IMG/VR virus record: IMGVR_UViG_3300042868_009486
Coordinates: 1 to 64,000 of that record
DNA from: a virus
Length of the DNA stretch: 64,000 nucleotides
Strand: one strand, 5' to 3'
The notes under the pieces are model-generated. The model saw nothing but the letters and a program-made list of their open reading frames with translations, searched no databases and was not told the origin of the DNA. A program made the position numbers and the translations under genes. Every line of letters starts with the position of its first letter. Position 1 is the stretch's first letter. Below, one piece after another: positions 3,280-52,755 of the stretch.

Positions 3280-3590
3280 TGAAAGAAACATTTAAACTAT
3301 TCCAAGTCAAAGGAGAACTATATCTTACAAAAATTGAAGAACTGAAGATAGGTGATAAGGTTATTGTCACAGTTGCTGATCAATTCCCTACCGTCGTTGA
3401 GTGTCAAAATGATGAACAAATTAGTTTGATACAGACCCCAAAACTATCCATGACTAAAGCAAATAAAGTTGTGATGGGTCCTGAAGAAATTACTATAGAA
3501 GAAAGTATGGCACAAAAGTTGGGGGATGATGATGGTTTCGTTCTTGTTCAGGTGGAGGACGGTAAAGTAATAATTATAGAAAACGAATGA
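3279..3590 (+). CDS. Small beta-rich protein of unknown function
   Basis: 103 aa. Alternating hydrophobic residues (KIGDKVIVTVADQFPTVVE and DGKVIIIENE at the end) suggest a small beta-barrel. No tag. Coupled by TAATG to the gene before it and by ATGA to the small membrane peptide after it. Confidence 0.6.
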   Translation: MKETFKLFQVKGELYLTKIEELKIGDKVIVTVADQFPTVVECQNDEQISLIQTPKLSMTKANKVVMGPEEITIEESMAQKLGDDDGFVLVQVEDGKVIIIENE

Positions 3591-15565: not shown

Positions 15566-17131
15566 ATGAAACAAATTTACGCAAGTATCTTATTTTTAAT
15601 GTGTGTTCTAACAACAAACGCACAAAACACATTTTGGACACCAACAGATTATAGAGGAGCGTTTCCTGTAACAGATAACTCACCAGCAACTGATTGGACT
15701 TATGGTTGGTCTAATTGGGATCCTAACAATACAGTATACCCAACTACACAAACTACAGTTAGCTCAGATGTTACAACAAATACAACTTGGTCAGGAGTTA
15801 TCCTATTACAAAACAAAGTGTATGTTAAAAACAACGCAACACTTACAATACTTCCTGGTACGATCATCAGAGGTGACTATCAAACACAAGGAACATTAAT
15901 CATCACAAGAGGTTCAAGACTACTTGCTGATGGTGAACAATTTAATCCAATCGTATTTACATCAAACAATCCGATCGGCCAAAGAAACGAAGGAGATTGG
16001 GGTGGTGTTATTGTTTTGGGTAATGCTAAAAACAATCAACCTGGTGGTGTTGCAAACATAGAGGGTTTAAGTCCCACAAACTTCACACAACACGGAGGGA
16101 CTAATGACAACGATGATTCAGGTGTGATTAGATTTGTAAGAATCGAGTTTGCGGGTATTGCACTTGAACCAAATAAAGAAATAAACGGACTAACTTTTGG
16201 TTCTGTCGGTAATCAGACTTTGGTTGACTATGTTCAAGTAAGTAATTGTGGTGATGACTCATTTGAATGGTTCGGAGGAACTGTAAACTGCAAACATTTA
16301 ATATCATATTCATGTGTTGATGATGACTTTGACACAGACTTTGGATACAGAGGTAATGTTCAATTTGGTTTATCGATCAGAAATGAAAATTTGTCAGACG
16401 CCGTAGGTGACTCAAATTGTTTCGAATCGGATAATGACGCACAAGGTAGTGTGGCTCAACCATTGACGGCACCTATTTTTTCTAACTTCACAATTATTGG
16501 CGCGAAGAGCGATGGGACGGTTTCCCTTCCAATAGGTGAGAAATTTGAAAAGGCTTTCAGATTAAGAAGAAATACGGCAACTTCTGTTTTCAACACCATT
16601 GTTACTGGCTGGGAGAAGGGATTATCCATTGAAGGTCTACCTGTAGAAGATAATATTTTAGGGGACACAATGCACTTCCACAGTAACATTCTTTCTAATT
16701 TTAACCCTAATACTGTTTGTATTACAACAACACTTGGTGTATTATCGGTATACTTCTCACAACATGCAAACGACTCAATATCGACACATTCAAATATCAA
16801 TTGGGTGACACCATTTGTTCCACTTGGATTGACACCTGACTATCGCTTAATTGAAGGATCAACGGCAGCCGTAGGAGCAAGCTTCCCAAGTGAAATCTTT
16901 GGTGATTTAGCGTCGGTTAAAGAAAACTCAAATGACTTTAGAATCTATCCTAACCCAGCAAGTGAAGTAGTTTATGTAAGTAAGAAATCATATATCGAGT
17001 TGATCGACCAAAGTGGTAGAGTAATTGATTCTGTTAATGATAATGAAATTGATCTTCGTAACTTAGAGAATGGTGTTTACTACATCAGAGTAAACAAAGT
17101 TAAAACTAAAAAGTTAATAATTAGAAAATGA
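15566..17131 (+). CDS. Exported beta-helix protein with T9SS type A sorting domain
   Basis: 521 aa. Signal peptide MKQIYASILFLMCVLTTNAQ, then a beta-helix-type passenger (VYVKNNATLTILPGTIIRG, WGGVIVLGNA and similar rungs, with a Cys pair in VDYVQVSNCGDDSFEWFGG). The last 70 residues (DFRIYPNPASEVVYVS ... GVYYIRVNK) are the Por_Secre_tail/TIGR04183 domain that directs proteins through the type IX secretion system to the cell surface. The passenger resembles surface proteins of free-living Bacteroidota. On a phage it would be exported by the host's own T9SS. The upstream region has no late-type box. No tag. It could be a host-derived cargo gene. Confidence 0.8.
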   Translation: MKQIYASILFLMCVLTTNAQNTFWTPTDYRGAFPVTDNSPATDWTYGWSNWDPNNTVYPTTQTTVSSDVTTNTTWSGVILLQNKVYVKNNATLTILPGTIIRGDYQTQGTLIITRGSRLLADGEQFNPIVFTSNNPIGQRNEGDWGGVIVLGNAKNNQPGGVANIEGLSPTNFTQHGGTNDNDDSGVIRFVRIEFAGIALEPNKEINGLTFGSVGNQTLVDYVQVSNCGDDSFEWFGGTVNCKHLISYSCVDDDFDTDFGYRGNVQFGLSIRNENLSDAVGDSNCFESDNDAQGSVAQPLTAPIFSNFTIIGAKSDGTVSLPIGEKFEKAFRLRRNTATSVFNTIVTGWEKGLSIEGLPVEDNILGDTMHFHSNILSNFNPNTVCITTTLGVLSVYFSQHANDSISTHSNINWVTPFVPLGLTPDYRLIEGSTAAVGASFPSEIFGDLASVKENSNDFRIYPNPASEVVYVSKKSYIELIDQSGRVIDSVNDNEIDLRNLENGVYYIRVNKVKTKKLIIRK

Positions 17132-21603: not shown

Positions 21604-22048
21604 TAGAAATTTAATAAAGCAAATTCTTACTGAAGAAGTTGAAGAACCAAAAATTCTAAAAGGGATCGGTATTGTAGTTAATACACTAAAACAACAATAC
21701 CCATTTATATTAGGATGGGAATTGTCAGATGAATTAGAAACATACAAGATGATAATTTACATCAACCTCTATGTTGACTATGAAATGGTAAAAGAATTTT
21801 ATGGTTTAGAACCCCGATATGAAAAAATTTTTTATTTAGATAAGGCCCTTGTGACACCATTATCCCCATTCAAGGGAAGATATGATAATGAAGGGGTAGA
21901 TGAGGCTTTAAAAATGAATGAAGAGTTACGAGAAATGTATAAATATATCCCTGAAGATATGAAGATGATAGGATATGGTGGTTTTTCAGATGATTATAAA
22001 GAACCAATGATTGATAATTTTACTTTTGTTGATGAGACAACTAATTAG
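21593..22048 (+). CDS. Tagged protein of unknown function
   Basis: 151 aa. Tag MKINRNLIKQILTEE. The start lies 11 nt inside the upstream gene. The body YPFILGWELSDELETYKMI is the intact version of the decayed 20290 gene. The C-terminal half is rich in Met/Tyr. Fold not recognised. Confidence 0.65.
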   Translation: MKINRNLIKQILTEEVEEPKILKGIGIVVNTLKQQYPFILGWELSDELETYKMIIYINLYVDYEMVKEFYGLEPRYEKIFYLDKALVTPLSPFKGRYDNEGVDEALKMNEELREMYKYIPEDMKMIGYGGFSDDYKEPMIDNFTFVDETTN

Positions 22049-22403
22049 ACATATCTTAAGAGAGTCTAAAGTGCAGACTGACATCCTCGATCTAATTAAA
22101 GATGAGGATATTTTTGTTGCCGCTAAGTTTGTTGGTGGTTTAGATAACCTAAAACAAATACTCAAAAACGAACCTGAGTATGTAACATTAATTGACTCAC
22201 TCAAAGGAAAGTTGAATCTTATTTACCACTCGTTAAAGGAATACCTTGAGTTTCCAATGAAGTTTGAGATAGTAGGTAAAGGTGAAAATGTATTTAAAAA
22301 CCAATTAAACGACATCTATGATATGATACCAAAAGAAATGGTTATTAAAGATACTTGGGGTGATATTAAACAATTAGATATTGAATATTTTAAGTTCAGA
22401 TGA
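22032..22403 (+). CDS. Tagged protein related to domain 1 of the 904-aa fusion
   Basis: 123 aa from ATG 22032, which puts the tag MRQLIRHILRES at the N-terminus. The segment DEDIFVAAKFVGGLDNLKQIL matches DNNIFDAAEMVGGLDNLKSIF near the start of the 23349 protein, and FPMKFEIVGKG matches FPIEYEIIGIK. A small domain of unknown role used both alone and in the fusion. Confidence 0.7.
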   Translation: MRQLIRHILRESKVQTDILDLIKDEDIFVAAKFVGGLDNLKQILKNEPEYVTLIDSLKGKLNLIYHSLKEYLEFPMKFEIVGKGENVFKNQLNDIYDMIPKEMVIKDTWGDIKQLDIEYFKFR

Positions 22404-22723: not shown

Positions 22724-23352
22724 TGAAAGAATTAATTAGACACATATTAAAAGAAGAGGTTAGTAGAAAATATGATAAACCTACACCAAAGGTAGAGCAA
22801 CTTATCTACAGATGGTTGAATGATTATTTTGATGGTGTTGAGATGTACCATAAAAAATCTTATGAATCAACACATAGTTTTGATTTTTGTAAAAACGGAA
22901 GAGAAATATTGGATGTTGTTTTATATTTTGGTAATGATGACGACAATAAAAAAACTGAAGAAATGAGTTTTAATAGGGGTTTAATGAGTGTTCCAAAAAA
23001 TGTATTTGATGACTTATCCACAGATATTCCTGTGAGAGTAAGTTATTTAAGATACCTACTTGAAGAATGGTTTGATGATACTTATTTAGGTGAAATTCAA
23101 AAAAAGATGGGTAGAAATGATATCTACATTTCCGAACTTTATATAACTAATTACGACGGTGATATTTGTTTTCCGCCGATAACAAAACCTGATGATGTAA
23201 CTGAGGAAGAAATGATAGAACATATTCTTAAAACAGGAAAATATAAAATGAACGATATATTGTGGTGGGAAGAAAGATTACCAGGATGGATTGAACAAAC
23301 TTATTTAGAACAACTTAATGGTGCTGAATACAGAAGATTAAAAGGAGAATGA
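22723..23352 (+). CDS. Tagged protein of unknown function
   Basis: 209 aa. Tag MKELIRHILKEEV, sharing ten of its eleven residues with the decayed 20290 gene. The body has a STHSFDFCKNGREILDVVLYF segment and several Trp (WWEERLPGW). TAATG and ATGA junctions on both sides place it in one operon from 20567 to 26063. Confidence 0.65.
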   Translation: MKELIRHILKEEVSRKYDKPTPKVEQLIYRWLNDYFDGVEMYHKKSYESTHSFDFCKNGREILDVVLYFGNDDDNKKTEEMSFNRGLMSVPKNVFDDLSTDIPVRVSYLRYLLEEWFDDTYLGEIQKKMGRNDIYISELYITNYDGDICFPPITKPDDVTEEEMIEHILKTGKYKMNDILWWEERLPGWIEQTYLEQLNGAEYRRLKGE

Positions 23353-26063
23353 AAGAACTGATTAGACATATCTTAAAAGAAAATAGACTCCAACAAGAGA
23401 TGAAACAATTTATTGAAGATAATAATATCTTTGATGCTGCTGAAATGGTTGGGGGACTGGATAATCTTAAAAGTATTTTCAAAGATGACCTTGAACTTTC
23501 TGAAATGTTAAATCAATTAACAGGTGTTGTTGATTTCGAATATCACGACGCTTGGGGAGATCCTAGATTTGTTGTATTCCCGATTGAATATGAAATAATT
23601 GGTATTAAAAAAAATATATGGGGCACACATTCTTGGCCTGAATTAAATCTTATTTATGATGACAGTAAATTAACTTCAGCAGAAAAAAAGAAACTAATAA
23701 CCATCCTTGCCACAATTCAAAATGACAATACTGTAGGAAAGATAGAAACCAACTTACCTGAAATTAAAAGTTCTGGTTATTTTGATGTTAGACAAATAAA
23801 CGGCAAAGATGTCGATATACATGATGAAGAATTCCCTTTTTCAAAAGAAGATGTGAAAAGAATACACAACAAACTTTATGGTGAGTCTGAAAGTTTAAAC
23901 GAAAGTGATAATCGTGAAACTGACAAAAATCTAAGGGCAATAAATGTATTGTTATCTTTAGTTAGTTGGGACGGGCTTTGTGATATATGGGCAGAATATA
24001 ATCCTGATGATAAAGAATATGAAATACGATCAAAAACTCTCTCAACAGATGATTTGGCGACCTCAATTACTGAAATAGAAAAAGAACTTAATTCTTTAGA
24101 GGACTCAATAAAGTCTATGGGAATCAAAGTGTATATCTACACACCGTGGTATGTGGATAGTTGTGACGATGAGGTTAAGTTCATGAACGAGAGTTCAAAC
24201 AGAAATGAAAAGGACACACAAAGACTTTTCAAAATAATAAAAATGATAATGGAAGATATGATACTTCCTGAATATGGTCATCTTATTTGTTCTTATGAAA
24301 TCACATTAAATGAAGATTTTTTCAATATACCTCAAGTTACAGTTTTATTTATTGGAGGTTACGGAACAGAATATTGGCCAGTGACCCAAGCTGTAAGAAA
24401 CATGTATAATGAGGTCTTAGATGCCATTACAAAAGAAATTGCAACCTATACAGGAGTAGTAATTTATGTTGATATGTTACAAACACCAAAGTGTGAAGAT
24501 AAAGAAAATATCTATCTGAGAGAAAGTGAATCAGAAGACAAAGATTATAGTCCTGCGGGTAAAGAAATAACACCCAATCATATTGTTGTCCATAAGTCCA
24601 ATCCAATGTACAGAGATAAGATAATGGAAAACGGTCTTAAAGTAAGAGCGGGAGAATGTTATAAAGTATATGTAGGTTATGGGGTTAAATGTAAACCAGC
24701 AATTTTTGCAACCAACTCAACAAACAAAAGAGCATGGTTTGATTCAACATACGACGATGATATTTGGTTTATTGACACAACAATGATTCCTTATGTTAAA
24801 TGGTTTAAAGATAGACATTTTGAGTCAAGGTCAAAACATATTGTAACATTTCAAGATATTCCAAAAGAGGCGATAACCCTAAAATATGAAGGAACAGGAA
24901 GTAGTGAAGATGTTTTAAATTCGTGGCCTGAAGATTCACCTAATAGATTACAAGAATCCATAAGAAGTATATTAAGGGAAGATTCATTAAAGAATGATTT
25001 AATGGAATCAGAAGATAAAAAACTTGATTTGGTTAAACAAATGATTCTTCAGTTATTTGATGAGGTTGAATATATTGAAATTGATGAAATATACGGAAAA
25101 CCTTTAATTAAAATCTATCACGATGTAGATGATACTGCAGCAAACTACGACAGTTGGTTTGAAGAAGTTATAGAAGATAAGATTGATGAAATGACAGGTG
25201 GAAATATTATTTTATGTTCATGGTGGGCACCAGTATGGCACTATAAAAGAAAGAACGCTGACTTTTTTATTGATGTTGAAAAAATTGAATATGACGATGA
25301 CGGAAATGAGATAAACGAGTCAGAAGAAAAACAACCAAAGTATTTAGACATCATCAAAGATATTGTGGAACCATTTAAAAATGAAGATTGTGTTTGTGAT
25401 ATTAGAGTTTTGTATAATGAAGAAGACGATATGTATTTAATTGATGTTGAGATTGGTTTATTTGACCTTAAAGAGAAGTTTTTTGCTGAGGTAGGAAGAA
25501 ACCATTATGTTAAAAAAATAAGACTTGATATTAAAGAAACAATCAAAGGTTACATCCCAATAGATAATTTCTATGTTGGTTCATACTCAACACCAAAATG
25601 TGGTGAGAAAAGATGGTGGGACAAAAATATAAATGAATCTGATAATAAAGAACAATCATTACAAAAACTTATAGACCAACACGGTTTATATGATTTCATA
25701 AAGATGACAGGGTTAGACTTTAATCAAGTAAAAACATTATTAAGTAAAGTAGATAACCCCAAAGAAATATTAAAACAATATATAAGAGAATTTGTTTTAG
25801 AACATGATGGGATGAGTGGTGACAATTATGGTTCACTTTTTGCGTTAAATTTACCATTGAGTGATACTAAGTATGTTAACGATATATTAGTACAAGACAG
25901 TGGTCAAAGTGCTGTTGAGATATGGGAGTATCATCTTGATGAATATGGACATAGAGAACAAAAAGACCAATATCTAACATCAATTATTACCCTAACTAAT
26001 GACGAGTTACTATCAATTCTTTCTTGGATGATGGAAGTAATAGAAGGTGGTTATTGGGATTAG
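23349..26063 (+). CDS. 904-aa tagged multidomain fusion, polyprotein-like
   Basis: Starts with the tag MKELIRHILKEN. Domain 1 (residues 12-180) is related to the 22032 protein. Next come two alpha/beta modules (about 190-280 and 285-395), an ADP-ribosyltransferase-like module (about 398-530), an internal copy of a tag (RLQESIRSILRED, about 534-546), two more modules (about 555-660 and 660-760) similar in order to the earlier pair, and a C-terminal domain related to the 27099 protein (QHGLYDFIKMTGL). Short linkers with NES/RES/NESE (ESDNR, NESSNR, RESESEDK, NESEEK, NESDNK) separate modules. I infer gene fusion of tagged neighbours. Processing into pieces at the linkers is a hypothesis. Confidence 0.7.
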   Translation: MKELIRHILKENRLQQEMKQFIEDNNIFDAAEMVGGLDNLKSIFKDDLELSEMLNQLTGVVDFEYHDAWGDPRFVVFPIEYEIIGIKKNIWGTHSWPELNLIYDDSKLTSAEKKKLITILATIQNDNTVGKIETNLPEIKSSGYFDVRQINGKDVDIHDEEFPFSKEDVKRIHNKLYGESESLNESDNRETDKNLRAINVLLSLVSWDGLCDIWAEYNPDDKEYEIRSKTLSTDDLATSITEIEKELNSLEDSIKSMGIKVYIYTPWYVDSCDDEVKFMNESSNRNEKDTQRLFKIIKMIMEDMILPEYGHLICSYEITLNEDFFNIPQVTVLFIGGYGTEYWPVTQAVRNMYNEVLDAITKEIATYTGVVIYVDMLQTPKCEDKENIYLRESESEDKDYSPAGKEITPNHIVVHKSNPMYRDKIMENGLKVRAGECYKVYVGYGVKCKPAIFATNSTNKRAWFDSTYDDDIWFIDTTMIPYVKWFKDRHFESRSKHIVTFQDIPKEAITLKYEGTGSSEDVLNSWPEDSPNRLQESIRSILREDSLKNDLMESEDKKLDLVKQMILQLFDEVEYIEIDEIYGKPLIKIYHDVDDTAANYDSWFEEVIEDKIDEMTGGNIILCSWWAPVWHYKRKNADFFIDVEKIEYDDDGNEINESEEKQPKYLDIIKDIVEPFKNEDCVCDIRVLYNEEDDMYLIDVEIGLFDLKEKFFAEVGRNHYVKKIRLDIKETIKGYIPIDNFYVGSYSTPKCGEKRWWDKNINESDNKEQSLQKLIDQHGLYDFIKMTGLDFNQVKTLLSKVDNPKEILKQYIREFVLEHDGMSGDNYGSLFALNLPLSDTKYVNDILVQDSGQSAVEIWEYHLDEYGHREQKDQYLTSIITLTNDELLSILSWMMEVIEGGYWD

Positions 26064-26371: not shown

Positions 26372-26671
26372 ATGAACCTACAAGAACAAATATCAAGAAT
26401 GAAATCAATGATGGGGGTTATTAATGAGTCTCATCTACCGACATACATTATAAGAAGGGTGACAATAGAAAAATTAGATGACTTGGTTGATGATGTGAAA
26501 GGTTTAATTGATTCGGGTTATGATAGAACCGACGCAATATACGATACCGTAAGACAATTTATTGCATCCAGTAAGAATTTTAGATTTCTTAGTTCGTCTG
26601 AACAAGAATATTGGGATTCATATATTATGTTTGAGAAGCCATTGGTGGATTATGTAAAAGAAAAGTTATGA
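26372..26671 (+). CDS. Tagged protein of unknown function
   Basis: 99 aa. Tag of the long MNLQE form, MNLQEQISRMKSMMGVINES, with a cut expected at INE|S. Late-type box 26361-26367 four nt before the ATG. The body is helical and acidic and contains a YWDSYIMFEKPLVDYV stretch. Confidence 0.65.
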   Translation: MNLQEQISRMKSMMGVINESHLPTYIIRRVTIEKLDDLVDDVKGLIDSGYDRTDAIYDTVRQFIASSKNFRFLSSSEQEYWDSYIMFEKPLVDYVKEKL

Positions 26672-27099
26672 TGAACCTACAAGAACATATAAGAAAGATA
26701 CTAAAGGAAGAGACATATTATAAAATTTCTGATGACAAGTATTCAAAGTTAATTAAAAATCTTATCCTTGATTATGTTAATTTTAATATATGTACATTAG
26801 TTGTTAGTGCGTTAGAATCTTTTGAAGACCAATATTTAGTTATTTTGATAGTTGAAGAACAACTTAAGTCATCTTATCGTGAGGAACTTCAAGAATATCT
26901 TAATAATTATATCCCGTTAAAAGCAATATATGTTTCCGTTTCAGATGGTCAGGACTGTCAAAATTATAAAAAAGGAAGAAGTCAACAAGAAATGAAAGAG
27001 GGTGAACTAACAGAAAGATGTTGGAAAGGATATACTCAAAAAGGTATGAAGACTATGTTTGGTAAACGTTATCCCAATTGTGTGAAGAAGAAAAAGTAA
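26671..27099 (+). CDS. Tagged protein with C-terminal Cys motif
   Basis: 142 aa from the second of two ATGs (26671), giving the tag MNLQEHIRKILKEE. The C-terminus GELTERCWKGYTQKGMK then GKRYPNCVKKKK is a Cys-Trp-Lys-Gly...Pro-Asn-Cys-Val tail that recurs on unrelated large-phage and giant-virus proteins, probably a small sorting or interaction module. The central part is hydrophobic alpha/beta. Confidence 0.65.
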   Translation: MNLQEHIRKILKEETYYKISDDKYSKLIKNLILDYVNFNICTLVVSALESFEDQYLVILIVEEQLKSSYREELQEYLNNYIPLKAIYVSVSDGQDCQNYKKGRSQQEMKEGELTERCWKGYTQKGMKTMFGKRYPNCVKKKK

Positions 27100-27518
27100 T
27101 GAAACTACAAGAAAACATAAGAAAAGTACTCAGAGAAGAGAGTCAAAAACAATCATTACTTACACTCTTAAACCAACATGGTTTATATGAATTTATGAAG
27201 ATGACAGGACTATCTCTTCCACAAATCTATACAAAGACAGGAGAACTACCAAGAGAAGTCTTTGAGAGATACATAAAAGACTTTTTAGAAAAAGATGAAA
27301 TAGGTTGGGATCTATCTATACAAATATCACCAAATAAAATAGTAGATTCATTTTATTTATCTTATGGTGTAGTTACAATAGGAGTAAATGAAGTAGATTC
27401 AATAGGTAGAGTAGTTGCTGGAAGTTTCGAAAGACTTTCAGTTTTATCTGATGAGGAAATTTTCAGTTTAGTTGATGAAATGTCACAAATCAACGATGAT
27501 TATTTGGATTATATGTAA
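27099..27518 (+). CDS. Tagged protein related to the C-terminal domain of the 904-aa fusion
   Basis: 139 aa from ATG 27099; tag MKLQENIRKVLREES. Residues 20-60 (LLNQHGLYEFMKMTGLSLPQ) match LIDQHGLYDFIKMTGLDFNQ near the end of the 23349 product. The C-terminal half has short beta strands. Standalone and fused versions of the same domain in one locus support module shuffling. Confidence 0.65.
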   Translation: MKLQENIRKVLREESQKQSLLTLLNQHGLYEFMKMTGLSLPQIYTKTGELPREVFERYIKDFLEKDEIGWDLSIQISPNKIVDSFYLSYGVVTIGVNEVDSIGRVVAGSFERLSVLSDEEIFSLVDEMSQINDDYLDYM

Positions 27519-39003: not shown

Positions 39004-39846
39004 ATGAAGGTTTTAATTTTGGAATCACAATATGTCTCCCTTATGGAGGATATCAAAAAAGAACGATACAAAGAATTGGTGTCGAATCTTTTGGAAACTT
39101 TATTTGGGAAACTTTCTATTGTAGATAATGAAGATGGTGGTGAAATATATCAACATACCATACACGACCAAAATGGTGAAGATATAGCTGAAATCTATTT
39201 GGGAAAATATGGAAACGCGGGTTGCAAAAAAGACTTGACATTATCACGAGATGTTACTGAAAAACTCGAGGGGTATGTTCCTTATTTTCGACATAAATTA
39301 TTTTCTAAAGTTCTTGTTGATTATGTTTATGAACAATTGGGTATTAAATGTGATTGTGTTCAATATGATTATGATTTTGAAAATAAGGTGGAACTCGATA
39401 CTGACGGTACAGAATATGAATGGAGAAGTTCTAATACAAGAAAGTATAATGTCAAAAAGAAAAAGAAGATTAAAGAATCAATTGATAAGAAGAAAAAGTT
39501 TTTAATTGATGTAATGGGAATTGACTTCACAGATAAGATTGAAGAAATAAAAGATGCCTACGATGTTCCCTTGGAATTTGATGATATAATTGGTCCCGAT
39601 TTAATTAGACGAATGTTAAATTATTTTGGACCCATGTATCTTGTTGATATTGATGGGAAAAAATACTTATACCAATATAGATCCGATGAAGATAATAGGT
39701 TTGGATGGGATAGTGGTGATTTTGAATGGTTTCATGATGAGAATGGATTTGACTATGTTGATGGTGAAATCTCAGAAAAACTTGGTATTACACAAATGGG
39801 ACTAAAGTTCTCTGATATCATTGATATATTTTACAATGAAGACTAA
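39004..39846 (+). CDS. Tagged protein of unknown function
   Basis: 280 aa. Tag MKVLILESQYVSLMED, a diverged MKIIITESQ form. It has two alpha/beta halves separated by a basic segment (RKYNVKKKKKIKESIDKKK, residues 146-164) that contains IKES and could be a second processing site. The C-terminal half has YLVDIDGKKYLYQYRSDED. Late-type box 38993-38999 five nt upstream; TTTTTTTTGACCTG further upstream resembles the 56-bp promoter repeat. Confidence 0.65.
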   Translation: MKVLILESQYVSLMEDIKKERYKELVSNLLETLFGKLSIVDNEDGGEIYQHTIHDQNGEDIAEIYLGKYGNAGCKKDLTLSRDVTEKLEGYVPYFRHKLFSKVLVDYVYEQLGIKCDCVQYDYDFENKVELDTDGTEYEWRSSNTRKYNVKKKKKIKESIDKKKKFLIDVMGIDFTDKIEEIKDAYDVPLEFDDIIGPDLIRRMLNYFGPMYLVDIDGKKYLYQYRSDEDNRFGWDSGDFEWFHDENGFDYVDGEISEKLGITQMGLKFSDIIDIFYNED

Positions 39847-50520: not shown

Positions 50521-52755
50521 ATGAAACATCTAATACTTTTATTCTTATTCCCCCTTTTTGCGTATTCGCAATTCTGTCCGGCATTAGGACCTGACCAAAT
50601 TCTTCCGTGTGGAGTTGGATCCACAACCTTAACTGCAGACCTTAGTCAGTGTGGTGTTGGTGGACCTACACCTAATCAAACAACAAACTATAGTGTTGCA
50701 CCAATCCCTTATGTGAATCAAACTAACACAGGTAATCAGTTATTCATGACTGATGACTCACAACAAGGTCCTTTTAACATTGGGTTTACCTTTTGTTTCT
50801 TTGGTCAGACTTATACTCAGTTTTGGGTGGGGTCAAATGGGTGGATTTCCTTCTCACCAGCACAACCAATAACCTTCACAACACAAACTATACCAACAGG
50901 TAATATAAATGTCCCTAAAAACTGTATTATGGGACCATGGCAAGACTGGCATCCTGGTATTGGTGGTCAGATCAGATACCAAACAACAGGAGTTGCTCCT
51001 TGTAGAAAGTTAATTGTGTCTTGGACTAACATGCCTATGTTCTCTTGCACTAATAACTTTGGAACATTCCATATTGTGATAAACGAATCAACAAATTATA
51101 TTGATAGTTACATTCAAAACAAACCTGCTTGTCTACAATGGCAGAATGGAACAGCAACACAAGGTATTCATAATCAATTAGGTACTATTGGAATTGCCGT
51201 TCCTGGTAGAAACTCATCTGTATGGACAGCAGTTAATGATGCTTACCGATGGACACCAACAGGACCGGTAGTTTTGCCAACTTTAACTTGGTACCAAGTC
51301 GGTAACCCAAATCCTATTGGTACAGGACCAACAATAACCGTTACCCCACCTGCTGCAGGTGCGAATTATACCTGTCAGTTTGTATACCCAACCTGTAATG
51401 CAGGATGGAACACTTGTAATGCGGGTCAAGGCAGTAATTTAGGACCTGACACAGTATTTGTTTTACCTGGTCCACCAAACCTACCTCAACCAATAATTAA
51501 TTTCGGTAACCCAACTTGTTTTCAAAGTTGCGATGGTTTTATTGATATTATTGCACAAGGTGGTAACGGAGTTCAAACAATTTCGTGGAACGGTCAATTA
51601 CCAAATAATTTTATAAATTTAAGTTTATGTGCCGGCACATATCCATTTACTATTACGGACGCACTTGGTTGTAGTGTTACGGGTGTCGTAAACTTAGTTG
51701 ACCCACCACAAGTAACTTTAACACCGATAGTTGGGTCAGACACTCTATGTTATAATTCGACAAACAATATTTTTAATGTTGGTAGTGTGTTTCCTAATTT
51801 GACATATAACTGGTCAACCAATTTAGGTAATATAACATCAGGTCAAGGAACACAACAAATTAATTTAGATGTAAGTGGTGAAAACAGTGGATTCTATAAT
51901 AATGTGTTATCTGTTTATGGAATTAACCAATTTGGGTGTATGAGTAACCCTGTAAACTTTTCGTTAGTTAATTTCAATTTATTACCCCAAGTTGCACAAA
52001 TCGGACCTTTTTGTGAATACGATGGGTGTACACCTCTTACTGCTGTCCCGGCTGGAGGAACATTTAGTGGTAATAATGTATGGTTGAATGATTATTGTCC
52101 CAACAATGGTTTTATTGGGGTTGATGGTGTAAGTTATTTTGTAACACAATCTGGTTGTTGGTTTGATACCACAATATCAGTAAATGTATTCCCAAGACCG
52201 ACCGTAATTCCTGTAATCGATGGGAGGGTTGGTGTTAATTATGAATATCACGAAATATGTGATGGGGACACAATACAAGATTTATATGAAGCACAATCAC
52301 CATTCGTTGGTTATAATGAATGGTATGTGTTTGGTGATACACTACAAGGACCCACAATTAGTTTAACTTGGGATCAAGAAGGTATATTTCAATTTGATGT
52401 TGTGAGATGGAGTAATGGTTGTATTTCTAATCCTGAAACGATTACCGTAGCTCTAAGTCTATGTCCGCAAGAATTGATTTATATACCTAATACATTTACT
52501 CCTGATGGTAATGAACATAATCAGTATTTTTTACCGGTAATAACTTCAGGTGTTGATTTATATCAGTATCGCATGACTATCTACAATCGTTGGGGAGAAG
52601 TGATATGGGAAAGTATGGATTCTAAAGTTGGTTGGGATGGTACATACAATAATGTTATATGTCCTGACGGTTCTTATACTTGGATTTTACAGTTTGGTGT
52701 GTCAAACACTGATGAGGTTAAAGAATATCACGGAAATTTAACAATAATAAGGTAG
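50521..52755 (+). CDS. Large exported protein with T9SS type B (CHU_C) domain
   Basis: 744 aa. Signal peptide MKHLILLFLFPLFAYSQ. Cys-rich beta-sandwich passenger (NIGFTFCFFGQTYTQFWVG, SNGWISFSP), several Ig-like or SprB-like repeats (CDGFIDIIAQGGNGVQTIS) and a C-terminal gliding-motility-type sorting domain (IPNTFTPDGNEHNQYFLPV ... YNRWGEVIWES ... GWDGTYN ... PDGSYTW), TIGR04131. Such proteins are exported through T9SS and attached to the surface. Unlike the 15566 gene it follows a late-type box (50507-50513), so the phage appears to control it. Possible role: adhesion or shielding of infected cells. Confidence 0.85.
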   Translation: MKHLILLFLFPLFAYSQFCPALGPDQILPCGVGSTTLTADLSQCGVGGPTPNQTTNYSVAPIPYVNQTNTGNQLFMTDDSQQGPFNIGFTFCFFGQTYTQFWVGSNGWISFSPAQPITFTTQTIPTGNINVPKNCIMGPWQDWHPGIGGQIRYQTTGVAPCRKLIVSWTNMPMFSCTNNFGTFHIVINESTNYIDSYIQNKPACLQWQNGTATQGIHNQLGTIGIAVPGRNSSVWTAVNDAYRWTPTGPVVLPTLTWYQVGNPNPIGTGPTITVTPPAAGANYTCQFVYPTCNAGWNTCNAGQGSNLGPDTVFVLPGPPNLPQPIINFGNPTCFQSCDGFIDIIAQGGNGVQTISWNGQLPNNFINLSLCAGTYPFTITDALGCSVTGVVNLVDPPQVTLTPIVGSDTLCYNSTNNIFNVGSVFPNLTYNWSTNLGNITSGQGTQQINLDVSGENSGFYNNVLSVYGINQFGCMSNPVNFSLVNFNLLPQVAQIGPFCEYDGCTPLTAVPAGGTFSGNNVWLNDYCPNNGFIGVDGVSYFVTQSGCWFDTTISVNVFPRPTVIPVIDGRVGVNYEYHEICDGDTIQDLYEAQSPFVGYNEWYVFGDTLQGPTISLTWDQEGIFQFDVVRWSNGCISNPETITVALSLCPQELIYIPNTFTPDGNEHNQYFLPVITSGVDLYQYRMTIYNRWGEVIWESMDSKVGWDGTYNNVICPDGSYTWILQFGVSNTDEVKEYHGNLTIIR

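Follow-up and report, generated by a model that had tools for sequence, protein, structure and literature searches.

The gene at positions 23349-26063 (+ strand) of the 64,000-nucleotide stretch of viral DNA analysed here (the window), which is part of a 78,576-base IMG/VR fragment, is very probably a head-maturation polyprotein of internal head proteins, cut by an S77 prohead protease at [LIM]xE|S (the bar marks the bond that is cut) and originated by the fusion of tagged genes. It consists of one unbroken open frame of 904 aa with an ATG start, as a preliminary description of this DNA had reported. The gene sits among short genes of the same strand, many of them with an amphipathic tag at the start, and its own start overlaps the stop of the tagged gene just before it.

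The candidate cut sites divide the chain into an 11-residue tag, seven modules and two short relic-tag peptides, all of them on the + strand. The tag, MKELIRHILKE| (residues 1-11; 23349-23381), is capsid-targeting-like: in the window as in the relatives, it has the form of a propeptide at the N-terminus, some 10-19 residues long and closing with L/I-x-E. The modules M1 to M7 are 174, 96, 111, 144, 104, 106 and 141 aa long, with masses of 11.1-20.1 kDa. M1 (residues 12-185; 23382-23903; 20.1 kDa) ends in SLNE|, M2 (residues 186-281; 23904-24191; 11.1 kDa) in FMNE|, M3 (residues 282-392; 24192-24524; 13.0 kDa) in YLRE|, and M4, of the DYSPAGKE family (residues 393-536; 24525-24956; 16.7 kDa), in RLQE|. 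A tag relic without start codon, RLQESIRSILRE, covers residues 533-544 (24945-24980), and is followed by M5 (residues 554-657; 25008-25319; 12.4 kDa; end EINE|), M6 (residues 658-763; 25320-25637; 12.7 kDa; end NINE|) and M7 (residues 764-904; 25638-26060; 16.4 kDa). Cut sites are predicted from junction statistics and codon comparison at LNE185|S (23895-23906), MNE281|S (24183-24194), LRE392|S (24516-24527), LQE536|S (24948-24959), INE657|S (25311-25322) and INE763|S (25629-25640); LME553|S (24999-25010) is predicted from the strict-motif count against shuffles and from codon comparison, and LRE544|D (24972-24983), the end of the tag relic, from the cut-site map of the chain.

The position of the motif, rather than its count over the whole protein, is the main argument, because whole-protein enrichment is mild: seven strict [LIM]xE|S sites are present vs 1.2 +/- 1.1 in composition shuffles, which over the 904 residues is only mildly unusual (p ~1e-3). 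The homology-defined module cores contain none of the seven, which are confined to the remaining 19.6% of the chain (naive p ~1e-5). Modules were delimited by profile hits, and the outer ten residues were trimmed from the seeds made of cut-out modules, so that the motif was unable to define the boundary. Among related proteins, [LIM]xE|[SN] stands at 84 of 89 homology-defined module boundaries, vs a mean of 0.8 and a maximum of 4 in 500 controls with equal-length random windows inside modules; P1 is Glu in 89 of 89, and the five exceptions read IKE|E, IVE|G, LRE|Q, WRE|S and LNE|G. In the 64 distinct junctions, P1 is Glu and P3 is Leu, Ile or Met without exception (64 each), P1' is Ser or Asn in 60 (Ser 53, Asn 7) and P2 is Asn in 40, P4 and P2' being nearly free. 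In the 18 polyproteins with at least three modules, 85 sites fall within 1,784 linker aa vs 7 sites within 10,329 module aa. Because the sequences are related, these junction counts are not independent events, and the 30 different neighbour pairs of modules found across the boundaries are a better measure. At the window junctions, the P1' Ser codons are AGT three times and TCN four times, so the motif is kept as protein and not as shared DNA, which argues for selection on the protein. The linkers are also more disorder-prone than the modules (TOP-IDP 0.21 vs 0.03, on a crude scale). The shorter L/I-x-E occurs 23 times in the chain, many of them within modules and, since it is so short and frequent there, accessibility or exposure must limit cutting.

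The first and the last modules are homologous to the mature parts of two free tagged genes of the window. Residues 2-93 of M1 match the protein encoded at 22032-22403 (+) with E=2e-13, and residues 2-62 of M7 match that encoded at 27099-27518 (+) with E=1.5e-11 (phmmer in both cases); each match begins right after the tag of the free protein. Both likenesses had been pointed out in the preliminary description and they hold, and the linkers that it quoted are all present. Its in-order repeats among the modules in between were not confirmed: for the most part these modules show no sequence kinship with each other, and profile comparison gives within the chain only a weak link of M2 and M6 (probability 68%), while every clear pair involves a module from another phage (M5-M5b, 97%; M6-Y, 93%). 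Further architectures were obtained by family scans seeded with M4, M7, X, M3, M6 and M5. Five of the seven modules (M1, M4, M5, M6 and M7) are found elsewhere, in this or other phages, directly behind an N-terminal tag, for example M5 in L168 and L173, M6 behind MNLQEQIRKILKEE in L154 and M4 behind a tag such as MNLQESIRRILRE|D in L010/L043, L047 and L055; modules X and M5b are found likewise. Relatives that carry modules as separate genes, with which the preliminary description had proposed a comparison, thus exist for M1, M4, M5, M6, M7 and X. M2 and M3 were not found in such a position.

M4 has been detected at 31 loci and, elsewhere than behind N-terminal tags, it is preceded in every inspected case by a junction xxE or by the end of an inner tag, with unrelated partners upstream. 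In L010 and L009 the gene opens with a tag, MNLQESIRRILRE|D or MNLKESIIRILKE|D, and goes straight on into M4; the polyprotein of L007 still has a near-complete inner tag, DLQESIRKVLRE|ED, before it; and in the 904-aa chain LRE|SESEDKD is all that is left of the tag. Read together, these sequences form a graded series from a free tagged gene to a fused module. In the fused versions, the boundary retains the tag end [LI]xE, regardless of the upstream domain. Related to this, a complete tag had been described in the middle of the chain: the tag-like stretch RLQESIRSILRE is indeed there, and L007 and L009 contain equivalent internal tags, but it has no Met and is incomplete. Without Met, the start of translation as in a free tag is impossible, and the stretch is therefore considered the relic of a fused gene.

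When viral contigs were scanned with the 904-aa chain, ten loci were found, eight of which are homologous polyproteins of 848-1018 aa from eight other IMG/VR contigs (one cut off by the contig end). Wherever the aligned relatives have gained or lost a module, the edges of the change lie at the motif. M2 is cleanly missing from the L004 and L008 relatives, where the edges of the gap read xNE|S, and the order of modules is highly variable, with 13 orders in the 18 polyproteins and M3 at different positions. One polyprotein lineage (L051, L054, L068-L070 and L172) is without recognisable N-terminal tag. No relative of the chain was found in cultured phages (tblastn) or in bacterial genomes.

The protease that the motif calls for is encoded by the relatives. 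Pfam Peptidase_S77 was found above cut-off in 2 of 8 and in 8 of 14 related contigs searched, that is in ten relatives, many of the others being fragments; among those bearing it is a 272-kb contig with a 1018-aa polyprotein. The gene is absent from the window's own 78.6-kb fragment. The G007 protease, which sits in a T4-like head cassette, matches T4 gp21 (PDB 5jbl) with E=2e-14, and the capsid protein of the same genome matches T4 gp23 with E=1e-24. Such a cassette, with gp23-like capsid protein and gp21 protease, is present in both large relative contigs, where portal, scaffold and terminase are assigned by their position and by reading of the sequence. A capsid hit was obtained for ten relatives, and the capsid protein of each has LINE|A or LLNE|S a little ahead of the conserved beginning of the mature shell domain. 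T4 has SFLTE65|A at the corresponding place; that its precursor and mature chains are offset by 65 residues is seen in the comparison with T4 gp23. The scaffold-like proteins of seven relatives contain three conserved sites, namely [LI]KE|S, [IML]NE|S or VTE|S, and LIE|S. Besides, T4 gp24 has near its N-terminus LLRE|S, at which it is cut, and this is the same as one junction of the 904-aa chain. The specificity of gp21 is L/I-x-E with the cut after Glu, and short capsid-targeting propeptides (the capsid-targeting sequence or CTS, 10-19 residues) are enough for the import of foreign proteins into the head (PMC9026906). Several units of the chain are thus independent elsewhere, and each junction carries a protease motif which matches the capsid and scaffold sites of the relatives. 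At the level of sequence the modules, the tag, the conserved junction motif and the relatives' protease and sites are established, and the idea of the preliminary description, that fused tagged genes with cut-site-like junctions form a polyprotein, is supported by boundaries that keep [LI]xE and by relatives that have both the protease and the same capsid and scaffold motif. Away from the head genes, a 123-aa protein of G019 (249084-249299; L115) is weakly like the N-terminal propeptide region of the capsid protein.

Tag classes are found at the start of about 20% of the contig genes (21/104), vs 0.3% at internal Met. The types on the contig (window 369-48651 and the rest of the contig) are RILKE, TES..VKRVI, LQEQISRI..MM and MKIIITESQ, and the putative head-targeted proteins make up an unusually large set of about one fifth of the genes. 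Other joined proteins were also observed. At L001:7053-8489 (also L002 and L007), a GIY-YIG endonuclease-like protein continues in frame into a homologue of the window 22400 gene, with the inner tag INENILRKIIKEE retained at the junction, so that it constitutes a second, two-part family of fused tagged genes. In L065, an ORF at 3476 (611+ aa) goes in frame from a part like the N-terminus of cyanophycin synthetase into KLQESIRRILRED|EYSPAGKE (M4), an untagged protein being joined to a tagged one. Two-module proteins with a MKIIITESQ-type start are found at window 39004-39846, at L004:20129-20980 and in L094; their second half is an X module behind IKE|S, behind an inner TNIVKRVISE|N tag or behind INE|N. 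A shared stretch, CWKGYTQKGMKTMFGKRYPNCVKK, is present on otherwise differing tagged proteins (window 26668-27099; L001:15360-16112; L008:15351-16226) and matches several PHROGs of unknown function, the best being phrog_9737 (E=1.7e-6). Flavobacterium phage immuto (NC_055915.1; L116, L118), the closest cultured relative as judged by the capsid protein, has two proteins starting with MKKQILSEQF(K/R)RMQ.LAGIITE|S, which resembles the long tag type; a polyprotein was not detected in it. The proteins at window 15566-17131 and 50521-52755 have C-termini that look like secretion sorting domains of Bacteroidota (YPNPASEVVYV..., NTFTPDGNEHNQYF...), which points to a host from that group.

Database searches with the modules gave no known domain above cut-off in Pfam, PHROGs, NCBIfam or PADLOC, and no significant match to the T4 internal protein families in Pfam, PHROGs or NCBIfam. 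The M4 profile had no match in the PDB, and the predicted structure of M4 is of low confidence (pLDDT 47), too poor to search with. A hit to a RecBCD-inhibitor PHROG (E=0.017) was discarded, as it is weak and lies mainly over the tag relic. A likeness of M4 to an ADP-ribosyltransferase such as T4 Alt had no support from any tool and is not claimed.

These features could also be read as those of a chain that is never cut, that is a multidomain ejection protein of the 'polyvalent' kind, the modules of which act together while the linkers are flexible spacers inherited from the tags. Multidomain phage proteins delivered whole are known (PMC5512222), and the E/S/N/K-rich linkers and a motif LxE|S that could be a passive remnant of the tag are compatible with it. 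We nevertheless consider this unlikely: a passive remnant would not hold P3 and P1 at 64 of 64 junctions while P4 and P2' drift, and Ser codons of two families with no single-base link between them occupy the same position. The separate genes behind N-terminal tags and the conservation of the same motif in the relatives' capsid and scaffold proteins point the same way, and searches with Pfam, PHROGs, NCBIfam and PADLOC found neither an embedded peptidase nor a polyvalent hallmark domain in the chain.

The codons bear equally on the proposal that the junctions are recombination hot spots, in which conserved DNA would serve module shuffling without any proteolysis. It is very improbable, since the junction DNA is not conserved (the codons for L/I/M, N, E and S vary, with AGT vs TCN for Ser), the DNA of the degenerate motif is not enriched in the window, and what is conserved is the pattern of a protease, with P4 nearly free and P2 variable; the great variation in module order (13 orders) and the coincidence of breakpoints with junctions are the observations that speak for it. 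There is likewise only a slight chance that the chain is cut by another protease, of host or phage, or only after injection. The S77 gene is indeed missing from the window's contig fragment, but the junction motif equals the capsid and scaffold sites of the relatives and the published gp21 rule, and ten relatives have S77 genes.

For a polyprotein cut by the prohead protease, the following mechanism is the most likely one. One N-terminal capsid-targeting sequence of 11 residues would draw the entire chain into the core of the prohead. As the head matures, the T4 gp21-type (S77) protease would cut after Glu at [LIM]xE|S in exposed linkers and the tag would be removed, giving seven proteins of 11-20 kDa and two relic-tag peptides of 8-9 residues; the released proteins would stay with the DNA and would probably be ejected into the host. 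As for its origin, neighbouring tagged genes would have fused in frame, with the loss of the inner start codons and of the greater part of every inner tag. The tag ends, being the cut sites, would have been retained, and modules would later have been exchanged at the junctions. It is from the features of the sequences that we infer cleavage, packaging and ejection, as well as roles such as counter-defence.

Among known systems, T4 IPI, IPII, IPIII and Alt resemble the chain in their short N-terminal L/I-x-E propeptide, their targeting to the prohead core and the removal of the propeptide by gp21 are like the steps proposed for the chain, and the T4 internal proteins (IPs) are a diverse set ejected with the DNA (PMC9026906, PMC3012670). 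However, each T4 internal protein has its own gene and its own CTS, whereas the 904-aa chain has seven units and one CTS, with sites in between. The CTS of T4 ipIII is MKTYQEFIAE|, to be compared with MKELIRHILKE| in the chain, and the predicted pieces of 11-20 kDa are within the size range of T4 IP proteins. A counter-defence role is known for IPI (PMC3012670). Kinship of the mature part to the T4 internal family is not a strict requirement, because T-even internal proteins have only the CTS in common (PMC3012670). The T4 core proteins gp22, gp67 and gp68 also have several L/I-x-E sites for the same protease class (gp21), but their cutting clears the scaffold for the DNA, whereas the pieces of the chain are conserved modules, several of which are also separate tagged proteins. 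Polyvalent proteins (P1 DarB and N4 vRNAP type) are like the chain in having many units in one polypeptide, probably packaged and ejected, and they were likened to polyproteins by their discoverers (PMC5512222). On the other hand, they carry recognised enzyme domains and, in many cases, a built-in metallopeptidase or assemblin-like peptidase, none of which was found in the 904-aa chain, while the chain, unlike them, has regularly spaced sites for a separate prohead protease. Finally, phiKZ and SPN3US (gp175/gp245) are large phages with extensive cutting of head proteins after Glu, with Ser preferred at P1' in SPN3US; the accessible part of that work gives 14 mapped sites for SPN3US, 13 of which remove N-terminal propeptides and one a C-terminal one, and within it the release of several proteins from one chain is not reported (PMC10052503).

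The literature searched on phage polyproteins tied to a prohead protease contains polyvalent proteins and the polymerase polyprotein of Aquificae viruses, and no chain like this one. The targeting tag, the S77 protease, the ejected internal proteins and the multidomain phage proteins are known already. Polyproteins are characteristic of RNA viruses and retroviruses, and the prohead protease of tailed phages is known for the trimming of propeptides and the removal of the scaffold. For a chain of separate head-cargo proteins which is matured by a protease and shuffled at its cut sites, no example was found in the literature searched or in cultured-phage records. It is likely that this is a natural polyprotein of tailed phages, in which the prohead protease frees interchangeable internal (ejected) proteins brought in by one targeting signal and shuffled at the cut sites, that is to say a plug-in cassette for head cargo. 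If so, the T4 targeting system would here be put to a new use, with seven head-cargo proteins delivered by a single signal, and module exchange would take place at protease sites. Gene fusion would lead to an equal dose and would save one tag per protein, and large phages could in this way fix the relative dose of many packaged proteins. Many uncharacterised small proteins would also gain a shared likely destination, and exact predictions for mass spectrometry follow.
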